From a virus: a stretch of DNA of 22,377 nt. The position numbers and the translations under genes were made by a program. Shown piece by piece: positions 1-7,419 of the stretch. The notes below the pieces were generated by a model. It was given only the letters and a program-made list of their open reading frames with translations, had not been told where the DNA came from and did no database searches. Numbering within the stretch: the stretch's first letter is position 1; every line of letters begins with the position of its first letter. The DNA lies in the IMG/VR virus record IMGVR_UViG_3300034102_003016, positions 1 to 22,377 of that record; one strand, given 5' to 3'.

Positions 1-852
1 AAACTGGTCGAATCCTTGCACAGTCAGATTACTCAACACGCTGCAAAATCTATAACTAAATCTACTGGACAACAGATCAAGATTGCGTCTGAATTGATCC
101 CAGGTGTTGCCATATCTGTTAAACTCGTACAAGGCCCCAGTATTCTCAGCACTGATCGTAAAGGTGGTACCCGCGGGCAATTGATTCAGTATTTTGCTCA
201 ATCTGTCTGTGTTTACTCCCAGCCCTGTAAAGATGTCTGCCGACACCGGCAACTGTTTGATCACCTGCGGCAATCCATTGTACAAAAAGGGCTCTCCACC
301 GGTAATTTCTATCTGCTCCACCGATCGGAATCGTTGTACTTCTTGCAGGATGGTCTGATAGGCCTCGCTGTTTTTTATGGCTGTTTGCCCCAGCTTCAAC
401 ACTATGCGATCATTGGCATTGATGGTGTAGCGGTCCTGATCTAGATATGAACCATGAGCATCAATGTCACGTAACCAAGCAGTACTGTACTGTTTACAGC
501 AATAACTACAGGTCAAATTGCAATCACTGCCAAGGTTGATGTGTAACACATGCGGAGAAGTGTACAGATCTGTGTGAGTCCTATCTGTGGTTTTCATGGC
601 TGTGCGGCGACTGACTCGACCCTGACGTTCTGCTGACCAACAGGTATCTTCACACGAGTCCACAGGCTCATTGTTTAACATGGCCTGTCTTTCGGCTAAC
701 AATTCAGGAGTGTTAAACAATTTGCCCGGATTGGATCTAAGCCACGACAGGTCAATTTTGGTGGCCTTGGCTGCACAGCACGAGTTCATGGTTCTTCGCT
801 CGGGTTCTACAGTCAGCCACCAAAATTTTTGACTACAGTAATACTCAGTCAA
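1..852 (-). CDS. Radical SAM protein with N-terminal cysteine segment (3' end cut by window edge)
   Basis: The reading frame is open from 852 to the window edge (284 codons seen) and has no stop. The likely start is a TTG at 850-852, which overlaps the uvsX stop by 8 bases and is preceded by the strong ribosome binding site AGAGGAA four to five bases upstream. The first in-frame ATG is only at 789, and starting there would remove the first conserved cysteine. The visible protein has C6, C25/C26, C67 and C71, then the radical SAM cluster motif CNLTCSYC (C111, C115, C118) and a GGEP motif at 185-188. These bind a 4Fe-4S cluster and S-adenosylmethionine in the radical SAM family. The cysteine layout resembles that of the radical SAM genes at 2181-3326 and 3852-4736. 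The substrate cannot be told. Family assignment is firm; the TTG start is likely. Confidence 0.88.
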   Translation of the reverse strand, partial: MTEYYCSQKFWWLTVEPERRTMNSCCAAKATKIDLSWLRSNPGKLFNTPELLAERQAMLNNEPVDSCEDTCWSAERQGRVSRRTAMKTTDRTHTDLYTSPHVLHINLGSDCNLTCSYCCKQYSTAWLRDIDAHGSYLDQDRYTINANDRIVLKLGQTAIKNSEAYQTILQEVQRFRSVEQIEITGGEPFLYNGLPQVIKQLPVSADIFTGLGVNTDRLSKILNQLPAGTTFTISAENTGALYEFNRYGNTWDQFRRNLDLLSSRFSYRFCSVLSNLTVQGFDQF

Positions 853-1960
853 CCGGTTCCTCTTTTTTGGATTTTTTAGCAGGCTTTTCTTCTACAACCA
901 GCTCGTCAACTGTTTGCTCCACTTCTGCAGTTTTATGATGCGGGTTGGAGGTAAAGTCTGCTATGATACGATCTAAACTTGTATCTTCGTTACGTTCCCA
1001 GGCCTTGCGGAATTGTTTGATCACAGTTCCATCTGTCAGCGTGTATTTGAGACTGTTGCCTTCTTTTTCCAACAGGCCTTTGCCTTCAAACAGGTCAACT
1101 AGACCTGAATAAGGATTCATGCCTTCTTCGTAGGGAATCTTGACCTGTACACTTTCAAATGGTTTGGCATAGCGTGTTTTCATGATCTTGCAAGCGGCAC
1201 GGATACCTTTTACTTCACTAATCTTGTTGCCATCTTCATCTTCTTTTAGTTTTAGTTTACGCATGGCGACCACAATACTTGATGCGTAGATAAAACCCTG
1301 TCCACCTGAGATCTTGTCGTCTGGATCAAACATGTCCTGACTTGCGTATGTGTGTGCTGTACAAACTAGACCTAAATTCAAGCTACCAAACATGTTTACG
1401 CAATTACGTACCAGGGCGGCAAGTGCTTTGGGCTTACGACCCATGTCACCTTTCATGTCGCCTGCTTCGAATTGATTTACATCCGTTGGGGTAAGCAGCA
1501 TACCCAACGAATCCACTACAAACAACACTTTAGGTCTTTCCGTTTCAGGCAATGTTTTATACTCTTTGACAAACTCTGAAATCATCTTGCCCACATCGTC
1601 AATCATGGCCATGTTGAGTTTGAGTAGCTTATCCTCACTGGTATCAACATTGAGTGCGTGCAACCACTTTTCGTCAAGTGCGTTTTCACTGTCAACTAGT
1701 ATCACATAAATGCCTTGCTTTTGTGCGTTGGCAACCAGGTTACCAGAACAGATAAAACTTTTACCTGCACCCGATTCTCCGGCAAACACAGTGACTTTGC
1801 CTAGCGGAACACCTTTGTTGAAATCCCCAGATATGAGATAATTTAATGCATAGTTGTTGGTTGAAATCCAGTCGGTGGGATCTGTAAACCCTACACTGAT
1901 ACCGTCGATACTTTTGGTAATACTTTTTCTAAATTTACTTACGTCAAATGGTTTGGCCAT
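845..1960 (-). CDS. uvsX: UvsX RecA-like recombinase
   Basis: The 371-residue protein matches the T4 UvsX family, the phage RecA homologue that pairs single-stranded DNA with a homologous duplex and drives recombination-dependent replication. The Walker A motif GESGAGKS is at residues 61-68, the Walker B strand VLFVVDSLG at 145-153, and the SGGQGFIYASS segment, typical of the DNA-binding loop region, at 218-228. The C-terminus (about 345-371) is a charged Glu/Lys tail, as expected for the region that talks to partner proteins. Length is close to T4 UvsX (about 390). The ATG at 1960 has a good ribosome binding site (AAGGAA). It follows the small basic gene at 1982-2170 in the same transcript, and the next gene starts inside its last codons. 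It is a DNA metabolism gene without a late promoter. Confidence 0.96.
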   Translation of the reverse strand: MAKPFDVSKFRKSITKSIDGISVGFTDPTDWISTNNYALNYLISGDFNKGVPLGKVTVFAGESGAGKSFICSGNLVANAQKQGIYVILVDSENALDEKWLHALNVDTSEDKLLKLNMAMIDDVGKMISEFVKEYKTLPETERPKVLFVVDSLGMLLTPTDVNQFEAGDMKGDMGRKPKALAALVRNCVNMFGSLNLGLVCTAHTYASQDMFDPDDKISGGQGFIYASSIVVAMRKLKLKEDEDGNKISEVKGIRAACKIMKTRYAKPFESVQVKIPYEEGMNPYSGLVDLFEGKGLLEKEGNSLKYTLTDGTVIKQFRKAWERNEDTSLDRIIADFTSNPHHKTAEVEQTVDELVVEEKPAKKSKKEEPVD

Positions 1961-1981
1961 GATAGTGTTCCTTGATTATGA

Positions 1982-2170
1982 TTATTTTGTTGCTAATGCT
2001 TCTTTCTCTGCTGTGATTTCTTTACGGCGTTCTTTGATACCTTTGCTCATTTCCTGTAAGGCTTTTCTAGCACGGGCCGCTGATGCTTTTACGCCTTTGG
2101 CTGTGAATTTTTCATTTTCTGCACAGTATGTTTCAAATGCTGTTTTGATTGCGTCGTGATTTTGTGACAT
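1982..2170 (-). CDS. Small histone H1-like (Hc1-like) basic protein
   Basis: This 62-residue protein is rich in Lys, Ala and Glu and predicted to be mostly helical. The central stretch KGVKASAARARKALQEM followed by KERRKEI resembles the short Hc1/histone-H1-like proteins often found in T4-like phages of aquatic bacteria, where they are thought to bind nucleic acid. The ATG is preceded by AAAGGAAA, a strong ribosome binding site. The gene lies 21 bases upstream of uvsX and 10 bases downstream of a radical SAM gene, so it is probably co-expressed with both. A nucleoid or DNA-accessory role beside UvsX is an inference. A role as substrate of the neighbouring radical SAM enzymes is possible but has no direct support in the sequence. 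Confidence 0.75.
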   Translation of the reverse strand: MSQNHDAIKTAFETYCAENEKFTAKGVKASAARARKALQEMSKGIKERRKEITAEKEALATK

Positions 2171-2180
2171 GGTATTTCCT

Positions 2181-3326
2181 TTATAAAATTTTGTATAACT
2201 CTTTAAAAATCTCTTTGCTGTCTAGGTTGCGTCTTAAATCCATGATCGACAGCTGTTTCATGGATTCAGTGAAATTACGTTTCATTGGTTGTTGAATGTA
2301 TGTCAACATGTTTCTATAACTATTTTCAAGCAAGTATCCGGGCTGTTGATTTATTCTGTCCTCCAGTTCCTGCTTGACTGAGTTTAACACATTTTCTGGT
2401 AAATGCCTAATGTTTAGGTATTCTGGGGTCAACAATGCACCAATAACAAAACTGTTGTTGTGAAATCCCAACTCTTTGAGCCAATCCACACAATCAAAAA
2501 TGCTATGATAGTTCAATAAAAAATGCAACATGTTAAAAGTTATTTTATGATCTAACTCACGAATGATATTGAGATTTTCTAAAAAGTCTATCCACTTACC
2601 GCCATGCCTGATGTATTCAAATTCTTGTTCCTGGCTTTCGATGCTCACGGTCCAGTGTACATTTTTAAACTCGCATACACGATCAAATACCTGGGTATTG
2701 GTACGACTCAGATTAGTGTTTATCCTAAGATTGACTTCAGGATTCAATTTTTTCAACAAGTCCAATAGTTCTAAATTTTCTTTCATCAACAGGGGTTCAC
2801 CGCCGGCCATGTACACATGTTTGAGTTGTCCGGCATGTTTAAATATGTATTGTTTGAATTGTTCTAGTTGTTGCTGATTGGGGGTTTCGTGTGTCACGTT
2901 CAATTCGTCACTCCAACGGCTGCTGAACTGTGGATAGCAATACACGCAGGCAAAGTTACACAAATTGGTCCAGCGTATGTCAATGGTGTGTAAATCGTGC
3001 TGGCCTACTTGGTAGGTATTCATGGGCACGGACTTTAATTCACGTATGTAAAACACTCTGTCACTGATTATGTCAAACCCTCGACGATCTTTTTCTAGAT
3101 CATAACAGGGATAACACTTGGTTCCGGGTTTGCCTTGTAACATTCTAAACTGAGTATCTTGGTTGTGCATGTTAGAAAGAATTTGTTCTGCTGATTGATC
3201 TTTGATATTGCCAATGGGACTGGCACTACGAATACAGTTTTTGACTGTTCCATCAAAGTTGTACATGAGACCAGTCCAGGGCACAGGACAAAAGGCTGGA
3301 TTGGTCAGCATGTCTTTAGGAGTCAT
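2181..3326 (-). CDS. Radical SAM protein with N-terminal SPASM/twitch-like segment
   Basis: From the ATG at 3326 the protein has 381 residues. An N-terminal segment has C13 (FCPVPW), C31, C71 and C74, plus the phrase IGNIKDQSAEQIL, which is typical of SPASM/twitch auxiliary Fe-S domains. The radical SAM core follows, with CNFACVYC (C123, C127, C130) and AGGEP (174-178). The family cleaves S-adenosylmethionine to make a radical that modifies peptides, sugars or other small molecules; the substrate here is unknown. SPASM domains usually follow the radical SAM barrel, so this order is reversed compared with classic peptide maturases. A TTG at 3338 gives four more residues, but the ATG overlapping the dehydrogenase stop is the simpler choice. 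No good ribosome binding site is visible for either, so translational coupling is likely. Confidence 0.9.
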   Translation of the reverse strand: MTPKDMLTNPAFCPVPWTGLMYNFDGTVKNCIRSASPIGNIKDQSAEQILSNMHNQDTQFRMLQGKPGTKCYPCYDLEKDRRGFDIISDRVFYIRELKSVPMNTYQVGQHDLHTIDIRWTNLCNFACVYCYPQFSSRWSDELNVTHETPNQQQLEQFKQYIFKHAGQLKHVYMAGGEPLLMKENLELLDLLKKLNPEVNLRINTNLSRTNTQVFDRVCEFKNVHWTVSIESQEQEFEYIRHGGKWIDFLENLNIIRELDHKITFNMLHFLLNYHSIFDCVDWLKELGFHNNSFVIGALLTPEYLNIRHLPENVLNSVKQELEDRINQQPGYLLENSYRNMLTYIQQPMKRNFTESMKQLSIMDLRRNLDSKEIFKELYKIL

Positions 3327-3855
3327 ATCTGGGTCCAAGGCTTATGTCGGCTATGTGTAGTACTGGTTCAGCCTGTTCCAACATGTTGATCAGAGTCATG
3401 GCCCAGGGCATTGGTAGGGCCGACGGTGGAGATGTTTTTTCCTCGGTGGTCAAGATATCTCCTGGTTTAACCAAGACCAGTCTAGGCAGATGATGCAGGT
3501 GTCTGAGTTGGACATGTGCTTGATCTAGGGTGTGTTTTTGCAACCAATACTCATCCAGGTTTTCTATAGTGCTGACAGGATAATTGGTTATTTGACTGCC
3601 AATGCTGATGATAGTTTTTTCTTGGGCACGCCATCTACGGTGCATTTCAAACAAGAGTTCAGTTTGTGCAAACCCTGCCTGGGCATTGTTTACAAACATA
3701 TCGCAGGTTTCTATCAGATCTGCACACTTGGGTATGCTACGAATATTATGTCCTGTGCTTCGGCTCAGGCCAACAATTTCATGTCCGCGACTTTGATATG
3801 CCTCAGCCAAGGCCTGTCCTATACCTTTGGTATGTCCTGTTATGGCTATTTTCAT
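3316..3855 (-). CDS. Short-chain dehydrogenase/reductase (SDR) family protein
   Basis: This 179-residue protein has the SDR Rossmann signature TGHTKGIG (residues 6-13) for NAD(P) binding, an NNAQAG element (56-61) in place of the usual NNAG, serines at 84 and 87 in the SIGS stretch, and YWLQK (Y103, K107) as the catalytic YxxxK. All parts of an active oxidoreductase are therefore present, although the protein is shorter than typical SDRs (about 250) and ends soon after the active site. The ATG overlaps the stop of the upstream radical SAM gene (ATGA) and has a GAGAGG ribosome binding site. Its position between two radical SAM genes suggests it acts on the same product or pathway. The substrate is not predictable. 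Confidence 0.87.
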   Translation of the reverse strand: MKIAITGHTKGIGQALAEAYQSRGHEIVGLSRSTGHNIRSIPKCADLIETCDMFVNNAQAGFAQTELLFEMHRRWRAQEKTIISIGSQITNYPVSTIENLDEYWLQKHTLDQAHVQLRHLHHLPRLVLVKPGDILTTEEKTSPPSALPMPWAMTLINMLEQAEPVLHIADISLGPRYDS

Positions 3856-4736
3856 TTGATGCCTCTCAGTTGTTGCTGTTTCAGTATGTATGCTTGGACT
3901 TGTTCTTGATTCTTATTATTAACATCTAATTCTTTGGGCTCTTTGAGGTAAGCATAACCATGATCGATTCCGTGATCCTGAGCAAATTTTTGTATGTTGG
4001 GCAGATCATGTAGATTCAACACACTGACTGTGGTCCAAAGATTCAATCGAACTGGCATACTTTTGTAGGTCATTAGATTTTGATAAAAGGTTTGCCAGGA
4101 TATAGGCCACCGCACCTGTTCATGCACTGCACCTATACCATCACAACTGACTGTAACTGTAACTTCTATGCCACGTGTTGCTACATCTGCAAGCTCTTCC
4201 AGTACTACGTTAGCATTGGTATTGAGTCGTAGTGTTTTAAGATTGGGTGGTAAATTTTTTAATAATCTACGATAATTCTTGCTGTAACTGGGCTCACCAC
4301 CGTTGATGTCCAGGTGCCTGATGCGTTCTTGTGGTAGATCCCAAAATCTGTTGCTATTATCTATTACAGGGAAAGTTTTGCTGGTTAACGCACCAATCCT
4401 TGTGCTACATTCAGGACTGCAAGTCAGACAAGCGGCATTACATACGTTGTCTAACACTCCGCCCACTTGTAAGTAGTCAGGATCAGTTTCTAATGCATGC
4501 AAGGCCAAGGCATGTATTCGCACACTGCTAGGGTTGTCGGCTTCAACTTCTTGACACCGCACACACTCGGTGGGCCAGATATCTTGTTCAAACTGCTCTT
4601 TCTTTTTACGCAACCAACGACTCTCACGCATCTGTTCCAATGAGTCAAACTGTGCGGCGGCAACCATGTGACCACAGGTACTAACTGTACCATTAGGATT
4701 GAATCTCACAAAGTGATCTAGTCTAGGACATTGCAT
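3852..4736 (-). CDS. Radical SAM protein with N-terminal cysteine segment
   Basis: The protein has 294 residues and is the shortest of the three radical SAM genes if the truncated one is of normal size. N-terminal cysteines lie at 3, 21, 58 and 61 (ECVRC), the radical SAM cluster motif is CNAACLTC (C99, C103, C106), and NGGEP follows at 145-149. VSCDGIG and the strand segments after it fit the rest of the radical SAM barrel. The start ATG at 4736 lies within the last codons of the sulfotransferase-like gene (19-base overlap), and its stop overlaps the SDR start, so the genes look translationally coupled. The target is unknown. The N-terminal cysteine spacing (X17, X36, X2) is close to that of the other two genes and suggests common ancestry. 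Confidence 0.9.
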   Translation of the reverse strand: MQCPRLDHFVRFNPNGTVSTCGHMVAAAQFDSLEQMRESRWLRKKKEQFEQDIWPTECVRCQEVEADNPSSVRIHALALHALETDPDYLQVGGVLDNVCNAACLTCSPECSTRIGALTSKTFPVIDNSNRFWDLPQERIRHLDINGGEPSYSKNYRRLLKNLPPNLKTLRLNTNANVVLEELADVATRGIEVTVTVSCDGIGAVHEQVRWPISWQTFYQNLMTYKSMPVRLNLWTTVSVLNLHDLPNIQKFAQDHGIDHGYAYLKEPKELDVNNKNQEQVQAYILKQQQLRGIK

Positions 4737-5329
4737 AGGTCAAGATTTCGTTGAATTATTTCAGTATATAGAGCTGGATACTTATGCTTGATGTGTGCCA
4801 CAATCATTCGCATGGTAACTGTTTGTCCACGCAGGTCTTCCCAAAGTATTTTATCCAGCTGAAGATAATACCATAGTTTACCGTTGTCTTTAAAATAGTC
4901 TACTAGATTTTGATCACGAGCCAATACATTCCAGGACAGGTCTGTGGCCGTGGCCAATTCATCTATGGGACGTATGTACATCCAGGCTTCAGTAAATCGT
5001 TGCAAATTAACCAACCAATGAAACTGCAAGCTGAAGTGGCTGTTAAGAAACAGAAATTTTTCAATGAATTTGAGAGCGGTGTCTCTATCAAAATCAGGAT
5101 TGTGCCGTAGCCAGGTCTGCACTCCGCTCACGTAGCGTTCAAATGGGTCACGCACAAATACTTCAATGACTTGTAGTTGTGCTATCTGTTTGTAGTCGTA
5201 CACCCGCTCAGCACCGGCACGTAGGCTGCTGCTGCCGTTTTTGTATATGGGATAGATGTAGCGATCTGGTTCAACTCGATAGATTTCAAGTTGATCAGGA
5301 AATAGGATAGGGTCTAAGTAACTCAGCAT
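4718..5329 (-). CDS. Sulfotransferase-like protein
   Basis: From the ATG at 5329 the protein has 203 residues. PIYKNGSSSL (27-36) matches the 5'-phosphosulfate-binding loop of sulfotransferases (PxxKxGSTS type), and VRDPFERYVSG (59-69) matches the 3'-phosphate-binding motif with its conserved Arg and Ser. Together these support transfer of sulfate from PAPS to a hydroxyl or amino group of an unknown acceptor such as a glycan. The frame stays open to a TTG at 5365, but that would run through a hairpin next to the gp32 stop; the ATG gives a start typical of the family. No ribosome binding site is obvious. It sits just downstream of gp32 and upstream of the radical SAM genes. Confidence 0.8.
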   Translation of the reverse strand: MLSYLDPILFPDQLEIYRVEPDRYIYPIYKNGSSSLRAGAERVYDYKQIAQLQVIEVFVRDPFERYVSGVQTWLRHNPDFDRDTALKFIEKFLFLNSHFSLQFHWLVNLQRFTEAWMYIRPIDELATATDLSWNVLARDQNLVDYFKDNGKLWYYLQLDKILWEDLRGQTVTMRMIVAHIKHKYPALYTEIIQRNLDLCNVLD

Positions 5330-5357: not shown

Positions 5358-5371
5358 TGACACAAGCGATA

Positions 5372-6346
5372 TTACTGTTTCTGACGGTTACGAATCATGG
5401 CCAAGATATCTTCAGCACGCTGACTGCTTGGTTTGACTTCTGCTGCCGGGGCCGCTACAGGAGCAGTTGGGGCAGGTACATCATCTTCTTCCACTGGCTC
5501 TGCCGCCACAGCTGGAGCCGGAGTACTTGTTGCGGCTGTAGCAGCGTTAGGAACATCTAAGCCATATGGCTTGTAGTAAGCACCCCAACGATCTGGATCG
5601 TATGGTTGGCCGTCTACACTTGCTTCAAACATTTCTTTGAGAACCTTGAGCTCAACTTCGCTAGGTTTCTTTGGCAAAAAGTCTGACAAGTTGAACAGGC
5701 CATGTTCATCAATGGCCGCTTGTTCTTCTGCTGTCAATGCTGATTCTTTGCGTGACCACTTTGAAGTTGAGTAGTCTGCATAGCCACCTTTACTTGTTTT
5801 AACGATTTGGAAATCCAAACCACGTTGCAAGTCTGTTGGCAATTCTTCCATTTCTGGATCCATCAGTGCAGCTTTGATGATGTTAAAAATCTGTGGGCTA
5901 ATTGTAAAGCGACGGATTGGGTTAGCTGGAACCTTGTCGTCACTCAGTGCGTTCTCGCGAACAAAGCCTTGGAACACATAAGATTTTTTCTTCCAATACT
6001 TACGGCCCATTTCCTCTAGGCTTGGGTCTTTGAACCATGGACGAACTTCTGCCAAGATTGGGCAAGCTTCGCCGTACATTTCCATACATGGAACTTGAAC
6101 TACAATTGGCTTGGAATCTGCCTGACCTTTGACACCAGCAAATGATAGTCGGATCATTGCACGTTCAGCCCAAAAGAAGCTGTTCTTTGTGTTACCGTCG
6201 GGGAGGAATCTAATGCGTGTTGTGGAACCTTCTGCAATGTTCCAGTGTGGATAGATAGCGTTGTCGCCACCTGATTGTCTGTTACCGCCTTTACCGCCTT
6301 CTGATGCTTGGAGCTTTGCTCTAATTTCTGCTAGTGTTGTAGCCAT
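5372..6346 (-). CDS. 32: gp32-like single-stranded DNA binding protein
   Basis: The 324-residue protein is of T4 gp32 type, the cooperative single-stranded DNA binding protein that coats replication and recombination intermediates and works with UvsX. The N-terminal basic segment (LAEIRAKLQ, then a Gly/Asn linker) precedes the OB-fold core (about 30-250, with IYPHWN, IRFLPDG and WKKKSYVFQGFV). The tail (about 270-324) is rich in Ala/Pro with an acidic EEDD cluster and ends in a short charged helix. Only two cysteines (C87 and C95) are found near the place of the T4 zinc site, which uses three Cys and one His, so zinc binding may be lost. The ATG has the site AAAGGAAAA. A dedicated promoter and operator-like leader lie upstream. 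Confidence 0.93.
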   Translation of the reverse strand: MATTLAEIRAKLQASEGGKGGNRQSGGDNAIYPHWNIAEGSTTRIRFLPDGNTKNSFFWAERAMIRLSFAGVKGQADSKPIVVQVPCMEMYGEACPILAEVRPWFKDPSLEEMGRKYWKKKSYVFQGFVRENALSDDKVPANPIRRFTISPQIFNIIKAALMDPEMEELPTDLQRGLDFQIVKTSKGGYADYSTSKWSRKESALTAEEQAAIDEHGLFNLSDFLPKKPSEVELKVLKEMFEASVDGQPYDPDRWGAYYKPYGLDVPNAATAATSTPAPAVAAEPVEEDDVPAPTAPVAAPAAEVKPSSQRAEDILAMIRNRQKQ

Positions 6347-6456: not shown

Positions 6457-7419
6457 TTATTTCCAAATGTATTGCCGATAAAGTTCAATATTTTTGGCCG
6501 CCTGTTGATAAAGCCGATTGATTGCTTCTGCTTTACTTGTGCTATTATACACTTGTGCCAGGCTGTGTGTCAACCTTTGTATGCGATCATATGGATTAGT
6601 GGCATCATCGTAGGTTTCGTCCAAAATGTCACCAAAAGTCTCAAAACCCATGTCCTGTAATTGTTTCAAACTGCCCTGCCCACTGACCAACACAAATGGT
6701 TTTCCGGTGGCCAAACAATTGGCTGTTTTTTCGGTGAACCAAAAATTATCTACAGCATCAGTTTCGCTAATGATTTCAATTTGATACTGATTCCAAACAT
6801 TGCCGTAGTTGCGACAAGCCGCGTACCAATCAATCATGCCCATAAAATGATTGCTGACCAAGTCCCGATCAAAAACTTTGTTTTCCAACCAGGCCAATTC
6901 TTTTTGATAGAGTTCATCAAAATGTTTTAACTTGTCTTTTACAAAATTGGCTTTGGGTTGAAATGTTATAAATGTGTCGTTGGGGAAAGCGATATCTAAT
7001 TCATATGCCAACCGAAATCTAATTAGATTGTATCGCCCCAACAAACTGCCTGCAAATTTTGCATTACTGATATTTCGATCAAATGTTGCAGGCAAGTATT
7101 GATTTACGCTGCCAAAAATTCCCATGGGTATGTGATCTAACATAAATCCGTTGTTGAGGTCTTTGTCATGAGATACAAAAGTGACCATGCTACACGGTAT
7201 GTCTAATTTATCGCATACGAACTTGATAAATTGATCGAATCCGCTGAATCTAGTATTTTCTCCATCTAATAATTTTATAACAATACGCTGATTTGCGTAG
7301 TGTTTCGCCAACAGATCTAACAGCAAATCTTTGCCAGTTATGCTGTAATCTTTGTGTATGAAAAATTGTGCCAGAATTACAATTTCTGTGTCTGTGATGG
7401 TGACTGCCTGCTCGTTCAT
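6457..7419 (-). CDS. TEKT-motif protein, possibly glycosyltransferase-like
   Basis: This 320-residue protein of uncertain function has a C-terminal block (residues 216-271) reading IISETDA, then FWFTEKTANCLATGKPFVL, then GFETFGDILDETYD. The S/TE(T)...TEKT...G(K)PF layout is found in a widespread phage and giant-virus family and recalls the donor-binding end of fucosyltransferase-like enzymes, so a sugar-transfer role is plausible but unproven. The gene at 8173-9201 has the same block. The ATG overlaps the SGNH hydrolase stop (ATGA), so the genes are co-translated. No signal peptide or membrane segment is seen. The N-terminal 200 residues show nothing I recognise. Confidence 0.65.
   Translation of the reverse strand: MNEQAVTITDTEIVILAQFFIHKDYSITGKDLLLDLLAKHYANQRIVIKLLDGENTRFSGFDQFIKFVCDKLDIPCSMVTFVSHDKDLNNGFMLDHIPMGIFGSVNQYLPATFDRNISNAKFAGSLLGRYNLIRFRLAYELDIAFPNDTFITFQPKANFVKDKLKHFDELYQKELAWLENKVFDRDLVSNHFMGMIDWYAACRNYGNVWNQYQIEIISETDAVDNFWFTEKTANCLATGKPFVLVSGQGSLKQLQDMGFETFGDILDETYDDATNPYDRIQRLTHSLAQVYNSTSKAEAINRLYQQAAKNIELYRQYIWK

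Follow-up and report, generated by a model that had tools for sequence, protein, structure and literature searches.

The window analysed here comprises 22,377 bases of a T4-like virus (IMG/VR record IMGVR_UViG_3300034102_003016, positions 1 to 22,377); tail, terminase, gp32-like, and uvsX-like genes are located on its minus strand. Between the gp32-like and the uvsX-like gene lies a cassette of four genes, referred to below as Sulfo, C, SDR, and B, in which B and C encode radical S-adenosylmethionine (SAM) enzymes; a third radical SAM gene, A, is found next to uvsX. Open reading frames (ORFs) were called mechanically. The features of the region are as follows.

5372–6346, minus strand: gp32-like single-stranded DNA-binding protein, left border of the cassette (phrog_1192, E 4.3e-65), adjoining uvsX in outgroups
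4718–5329, minus strand: Sulfo, sulfotransferase-like protein, first cassette gene (conserved motifs; PF03567, 15.7 bits; model pLDDT 87.9; sulfotransferase folds in BFVD)
3852–4736, minus strand: C, N-twitch radical SAM enzyme (NF033640, 136.2 bits; conserved cysteines)
3316–3855, minus strand: SDR, 179-amino-acid oxidoreductase resembling short-chain dehydrogenases/reductases (TGxxxGIG, NNAQ, and YxxxK conserved; PF00106, 19.4 bits)
2181–3326, minus strand: B, N-twitch radical SAM enzyme (NF033640, 253.6 bits; PF04055, 67.7 bits; PF13186, 28.1 bits; model pLDDT 95.5)
1982–2170, minus strand: small ORF of 62 amino acids between B and uvsX (found by tblastn in close relatives only, among all loci)
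845–1960, minus strand: uvsX-like recombinase, right border of the cassette (phrog_97, E 6.8e-68)
1–852, minus strand: A, third N-twitch radical SAM gene, neighbour of uvsX, cut by the window end (NF033640, 136.7 bits over 284 amino acids)

A module of two gene pairs between gp32 and uvsX

In the window, the cassette reads gp32-[Sulfo-C-SDR-B]-uvsX, with overlaps of 19 nt between Sulfo and C, 4 nt between C and SDR, and 11 nt between SDR and B. IMG/VR was searched with four separate anchors (B, SDR, UvsX, and C), which makes the result independent of any single query; each scan comprised the best 80 matches, and the sample is thus biased toward close relatives. Distinct protein sequences were counted, since contigs are partial and some loci (designated L followed by a number) share one contig. 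With the B anchor, the order gp32, Sulfo, C, SDR, B, uvsX was seen in nearly all sufficiently long contigs. When all loci were considered, Sulfo was located directly upstream of C in 160 of the 162 distinct C genes (median overlap, 19 nt), and SDR directly upstream of B in 139/143 distinct B genes (median overlap, 4 nt). A reading of the window made from its sequence alone (the sequence-only reading) had placed an SDR gene and a sulfotransferase-like gene at these positions on a phage-borne locus and had asked whether the genes stay together in relatives; the positions and the phage setting are correct, and the genes are almost always found together. The same reading had proposed a multi-step pathway on the basis of three radical SAM copies. 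A multi-enzyme module is indeed present, but its real unit is two pairs, Sulfo+C and SDR+B, often accompanied by an oxygenase-like gene, while A belongs to a set of dispersed paralogues described below.

The orders in which the module genes occur across loci, (I)–(V), are given in ARRANGEMENTS. Order (I), gp32-Sulfo-C-SDR-B-uvsX, is the commonest, and the oxygenase-like gene often stands between C and SDR. The pairs are exchanged in order (II), gp32-SDR-B-Sulfo-C-uvsX (L316, L319, and L324, and, with an oxygenase-like gene, L315), and order (III) is gp32-B-Sulfo-C-SDR-uvsX (L294 and L295). Order (IV), gp32-Sulfo-C-uvsX, is devoid of SDR and B (for example, in L282, L292, L296, and L305), suggesting that Sulfo-C may be able to work alone and be extended by SDR-B. 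Order (V), either SDR-Sulfo-C or SDR-B-Sulfo-C, occurs away from gp32 and uvsX in other phages (L253–L278 and others), where it commonly adjoins the oxygenase-like gene and one more radical SAM gene. A second SDR is present in L112, L113, and L114; in L025 (5883–6443), L126 (318–872), and L153, an unrelated protein of 184–186 amino acids replaces Sulfo and is accompanied by a divergent C.

A shared function is supported most strongly by gene content that stays the same while the order changes, and we hold it to be very probable that the cassette is a functional module. A contrary explanation would be that unrelated auxiliary genes were gathered at a gp32/uvsX insertion hotspot and co-occur by common descent only. 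Other unrelated genes are indeed found at this junction in L200, L209, L211, L222, and L250, and one clade makes up much of the sample; yet the same content is seen in several orders as well as in another genomic context, the reading frames overlap and evolve under purifying selection, and L242 carries all four genes while standing among non-carriers. We therefore regard the absence of a shared pathway as highly improbable.

Radical SAM enzymes and their partners

In the products of A, B, and C, four N-terminal cysteines precede the CX3CX2C motif and GGEP. The spacings, taken straight from the translations, are C6-X18-C25-X41-C67-X3-C71 in A (X40 from C26), with CX3CX2C at 111–118 and GGEP at 185; C17-X17-C35-X39-C75-X2-C78 in B (numbering of the longer ORF), with CX3CX2C at 127–134 and GGEP at 179; and C3-X17-C21-X36-C58-X2-C61 in C, with CX3CX2C at 99–106 and GGEP at 146. 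The published half-SPASM rule is CX9-15GX4C; this rule, along with the further cysteines, is fitted by B and C (CX12GX4C), while A is without the glycine. All seven cysteines are invariant in an alignment of 32 B orthologues. Six are invariant in 30 C orthologues, and C3 is absent only in one sequence that was cut short in the analysis. An alignment of 61 diverse members with a mean identity of 20% has few invariant columns, and these include the four N-terminal cysteines, CX3CX2C, and GGE. The four-cysteine spacing was found in 389 of 390 relatives, which were collected with the B and C profiles and thus do not sample radical SAM proteins at random, versus 180 of 5,900 shuffled N-terminal segments (3%).

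The best NCBIfam match of all three proteins is NF033640, N_Twi_rSAM. B exceeds the curated cut-off of this family (253.6 versus 170 bits); A (136.7 bits, incomplete at the window end) and C (136.2 bits) fall below it and, on these scores, are treated as relatives rather than members. The sequence-only reading is thus upheld with respect to the three sets of cysteines, their conservation in homologues, and a SPASM/twitch-like site ahead of the radical SAM core. Its emphasis on the unusual placement of this site has to be revised, since the layout is that of an already named architecture and is not itself new. Likewise, the three copies are real, but at 22–26% identity they are old paralogues, and a recent triplication is ruled out.

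Only some of the loci have gene A downstream of uvsX, and the variable position and presence of A rule it out as a module member. On large contigs of related phages, the number of N_Twi matches at E 1e-5, weak ones included, is 10 in 180 kb, 11 in 213 kb, and 16 in 357 kb; A is one of these about 10–16 dispersed paralogues per large contig. In L084 (3285–11743) and L087 (12203–18753), N_Twi radical SAM genes form runs of five next to tail-fibre-like genes, and the gene content near such runs (L084, L087, and L088) includes carbamoyltransferase, 2-oxoglutarate (2OG)-oxygenase, and adenosine 5'-phosphosulfate (APS)-kinase-like genes. The APS-kinase-like gene could be a source of 3'-phosphoadenosine-5'-phosphosulfate (PAPS).

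In a fold search with the model of B, the closest solved structures among the matches listed were the SPASM/twitch enzymes CteB, anSME, SkfB, SuiB, and MoaA, as well as BlsE. Like anSME and BtrN, the cassette enzymes would be auxiliary-cluster radical SAM proteins; unlike in those two, where the auxiliary domain is C-terminal, it is N-terminal here, and BtrN is absent among the matches listed for B. A relationship to viperin or another defence enzyme was rejected: B scores 48.9 bits against NF038283, with a cut-off of 180, and this match, as well as a PADLOC pVip match of 50.9 bits, reflects only the generic radical SAM core.

CteB, anSME, SkfB, and SuiB all act on peptides, and N_Twi clusters are found next to tail-fibre-like genes. 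Both observations would suit a maturation of the kind seen with ribosomally synthesized and post-translationally modified peptides (RiPPs), in which B and C, like SPASM maturases, cross-link or epimerise a peptide or a phage protein. Against this, B starts with the twitch, which leaves no space for an N-terminal peptide-recognition domain, and an SDR and a sulfotransferase are unusual partners for a maturase. Furthermore, a conserved precursor gene was not found in the operon, in agreement with the sequence-only reading, which had seen no classic precursor peptide. The only small ORF there (1982–2170) was considered as a precursor and rejected as lineage-specific, and B directly abuts uvsX in many relatives. 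We consider peptide maturation rather unlikely, though it is the most serious competitor of the interpretation that we prefer.

The start of Sulfo was placed at the Met codon at 5329, which does not vary among orthologues; translation could also begin upstream, from a TTG at 5365. The protein has conserved motifs resembling the 5'-phosphosulfate-binding (YPIYKNGSSSL) and 3'-phosphate-binding (VRDPFERYVSG) segments. Its PF03567 (Sulfotransfer_2) score is below the Pfam gathering cut-off (15.7 versus 22 bits), and this profile matches 1 of 25 Sulfo orthologues at E<=0.01. When the Sulfo model was compared with the viral models in BFVD, the named matches were mostly sulfotransferases, and the second match had an E of 2.7e-4; searches against PDB returned no fold match at E<=0.001 and no sequence match. 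Judged by its motifs and predicted fold, Sulfo is probably a PAPS-type sulfotransferase. In SDR, the cofactor and catalytic motifs (TGxxxGxG, NNAG-like, and YxxxK) vary little or not at all across 22 orthologues, while the protein is only 179 amino acids long and its PF00106 score (19.4 bits) is below the cut-off of 26.6 bits. The assignment of the oxygenase-like protein to the 2OG-oxygenases is provisional.

Combinations of radical SAM, SDR, sulfotransferase, and 2OG-oxygenase genes are known in natural-product pathways. This favours a scenario in which the product of the module would be a sulfated metabolite or cofactor that diffuses and either changes host physiology or blocks a defence, with no polymer being decorated, and all module enzymes are compatible with such chemistry. 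However, the conserved part of the module includes no scaffold-forming enzyme, transporter, or regulator, and a small-molecule product appears unlikely.

Distribution, inheritance, and allele exchange

The carriers of the cassette form a large, uncultured group of T4-like phages from water. Outside their clade, most UvsX relatives have about 10–80 bp between gp32 and uvsX. The nearest cultured relative by TerL (53.5% identity), the Arenbergviridae phage PA5oct, has the same order TerL, gp32, uvsX, but its gp32-uvsX interval is without the cassette. The uvsX gene of PA5oct is split; the split occurs at the P-loop and has a split-intein-like appearance both there (L103, 21859–24865) and in L173 (6691–8257), and in PA5oct an ORF of 477 amino acids lies between the halves.

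A FastTree phylogeny was built from 158 related UvsX sequences, 88 from carriers and 70 from non-carriers. The carrier state requires 4 changes on this tree, at least 2 of which are forced by supported branches, while shuffled carrier labels required a mean of 51.8 changes and none of 500 shufflings gave a number as low as 4. L222 is a non-carrier within the carrier clade, and L242 is a carrier of all four genes among non-carriers; their placement implies one or more losses or replacements and one or more transfers.

Among 50,697 phage records, B had no relative at E 1e-5, and C, Sulfo, and SDR had none at E 0.01. GTDB genomes were scanned with two short patterns per scan, supplemented by a sample of one class. 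The B profile found nothing, and the C profile gave a single match, on a phage-like contig inside a Porticoccaceae metagenome-assembled genome (MAG). In 274 genomes of the class to which this MAG belongs, NF033640 was over its cut-off in two, one of them being the phage-like contig, and C was found in that contig's genome alone. Within this coverage, a cellular origin of B and C was rejected. The contig of L253, which is attributed to a Porticoccaceae MAG (MED13), is phage-like and holds all N_Twi matches of that genome.

The cassette genes are under purifying selection: pairwise dN/dS values for all four, in pairs with unsaturated dS, are 0.03–0.11. They are less conserved than the border genes, with median identities of 0.36 for Sulfo, 0.56 for C, 0.56 for SDR, and 0.62 for B versus 0.70 for gp32 and 0.79 for uvsX. 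Identities of gp32 and uvsX are correlated with each other (r 0.85), while correlations with C, SDR, and B are weak (0.36–0.46). In the pair L082 and L105, gp32 is 98% and uvsX 99% identical, Sulfo, C, and B are 91–93% identical, and SDR is 54% identical. Single cassette genes are thus swapped inside near-identical borders, which suggests that the module product is under host or defence pressure.

Variable alleles within 98–99% identical flanks are also what might be expected if the module altered bases of the phage DNA, or the corresponding nucleotides, as protection from host nucleases. Such hypermodification would be in line with a gp32-recombinase position that is kept through several internal gene orders and with the presence of the nucleotide-acting folds MoaA, viperin, and QueE among the fold matches of B. 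On the other hand, the module is without a hydroxymethyltransferase, a thymidylate-synthase-like, or any other base-making gene, the same gene set is also found away from gp32 and uvsX, and the genes flanking the cassette upstream are structural and packaging genes. DNA or nucleotide modification is, in our judgement, improbable.

Possible chemistry, target, and related systems

Taken together, the features of the cassette suggest a chemical modification, made by the phage, that has not been described before. In the mechanism that we propose, B and C would use the CX3CX2C cluster to cleave SAM and would take a hydrogen atom from a substrate C–H, while the four N-terminal cysteines would bind an auxiliary Fe-S cluster that accepts the second electron, as in BtrN and anSME. 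Oxidation of a C–H or alcohol carbon would yield a carbonyl or an otherwise oxidised product, which SDR may reduce; the optional oxygenase-like protein may put on a hydroxyl, and Sulfo would cap a hydroxyl with sulfate. As to the target, we tentatively favour a phage-made glycan, or a surface protein of the phage or its host, which would receive redox changes and sulfation. It is preferred over a secreted peptide because no precursor gene is present, because other N_Twi clusters adjoin tail-fibre-like, carbamoyltransferase, and APS-kinase-like genes, and because cassette alleles are swapped like variable surface traits. The fuller proposal, that a phage-only pathway of two N-twitch enzymes, an SDR, and a sulfotransferase, often with a 2OG-oxygenase, makes a new sulfated modification on virion glycan, protein, or DNA, with its alleles exchanged as a variable trait, is put forward with somewhat more reserve.

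Several observations weigh against the proposed mechanism and target. The cassette adjoins replication genes and not tail genes, and the allele swapping would also fit an anti-restriction DNA modification. Since Sulfo-C occurs alone on some contigs, the four-gene pathway is not obligatory. PF04055, PF03567, and PF00106 are below cut-off or absent for C, Sulfo, and SDR, respectively. Finally, the oxygenase-like protein was named solely from an HxD...H...R pattern recognised by eye, and a Pfam search with it returned nothing.

No report of the module was found in the open-licence literature. The cassette enzymes share with N_Twi_rSAM the order of an N-terminal half-SPASM followed by the radical SAM domain, but nothing found there describes a pairing with Sulfo and SDR. 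The carriers resemble aquatic T4-like phages that are rich in radical SAM genes: the environmental genome TARA_ERS488813_N000010 has 12 such genes (PMC5332604), and radical SAM cassettes are reported in pelagimyophages (PMC7029224). In the passages of these two papers that were consulted, the genes are counted or mentioned, and a fixed Sulfo-C/SDR-B module or a gp32-uvsX site is not described. Radical-SAM-rich T4-like phages have been counted in metagenomes before, and fixed partners make the role of the enzymes testable; the module exists naturally with two genes (Sulfo-C), with four, and with the oxygenase-like gene, which permits stepwise reconstitution. If the proposed chemistry is true, the module would represent a virus-carried pathway combining radical chemistry and sulfation.

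The cultured Vibrio phages K566 and K567 (about 255 kb) are similar in having three adjacent N_Twi-like radical SAM genes, but no Sulfo/SDR cassette is annotated in the stretch seen, and their identity to the query used is about 23%. The three adjacent genes of K566 (L331, 15013–19415) are a possible experimental system.

Two further features of the window were observed. A second variable cassette, at 6457–9306, is composed of two glycosyltransferase-like proteins around a GDSL/SGNH hydrolase; it is located between a gp21-like gene and gp32 and is found only in a subset of relatives. At 12272–12799, a plus-strand HNH endonuclease gene overlaps the start of the minus-strand terminase gene, an arrangement that recurs in relatives.

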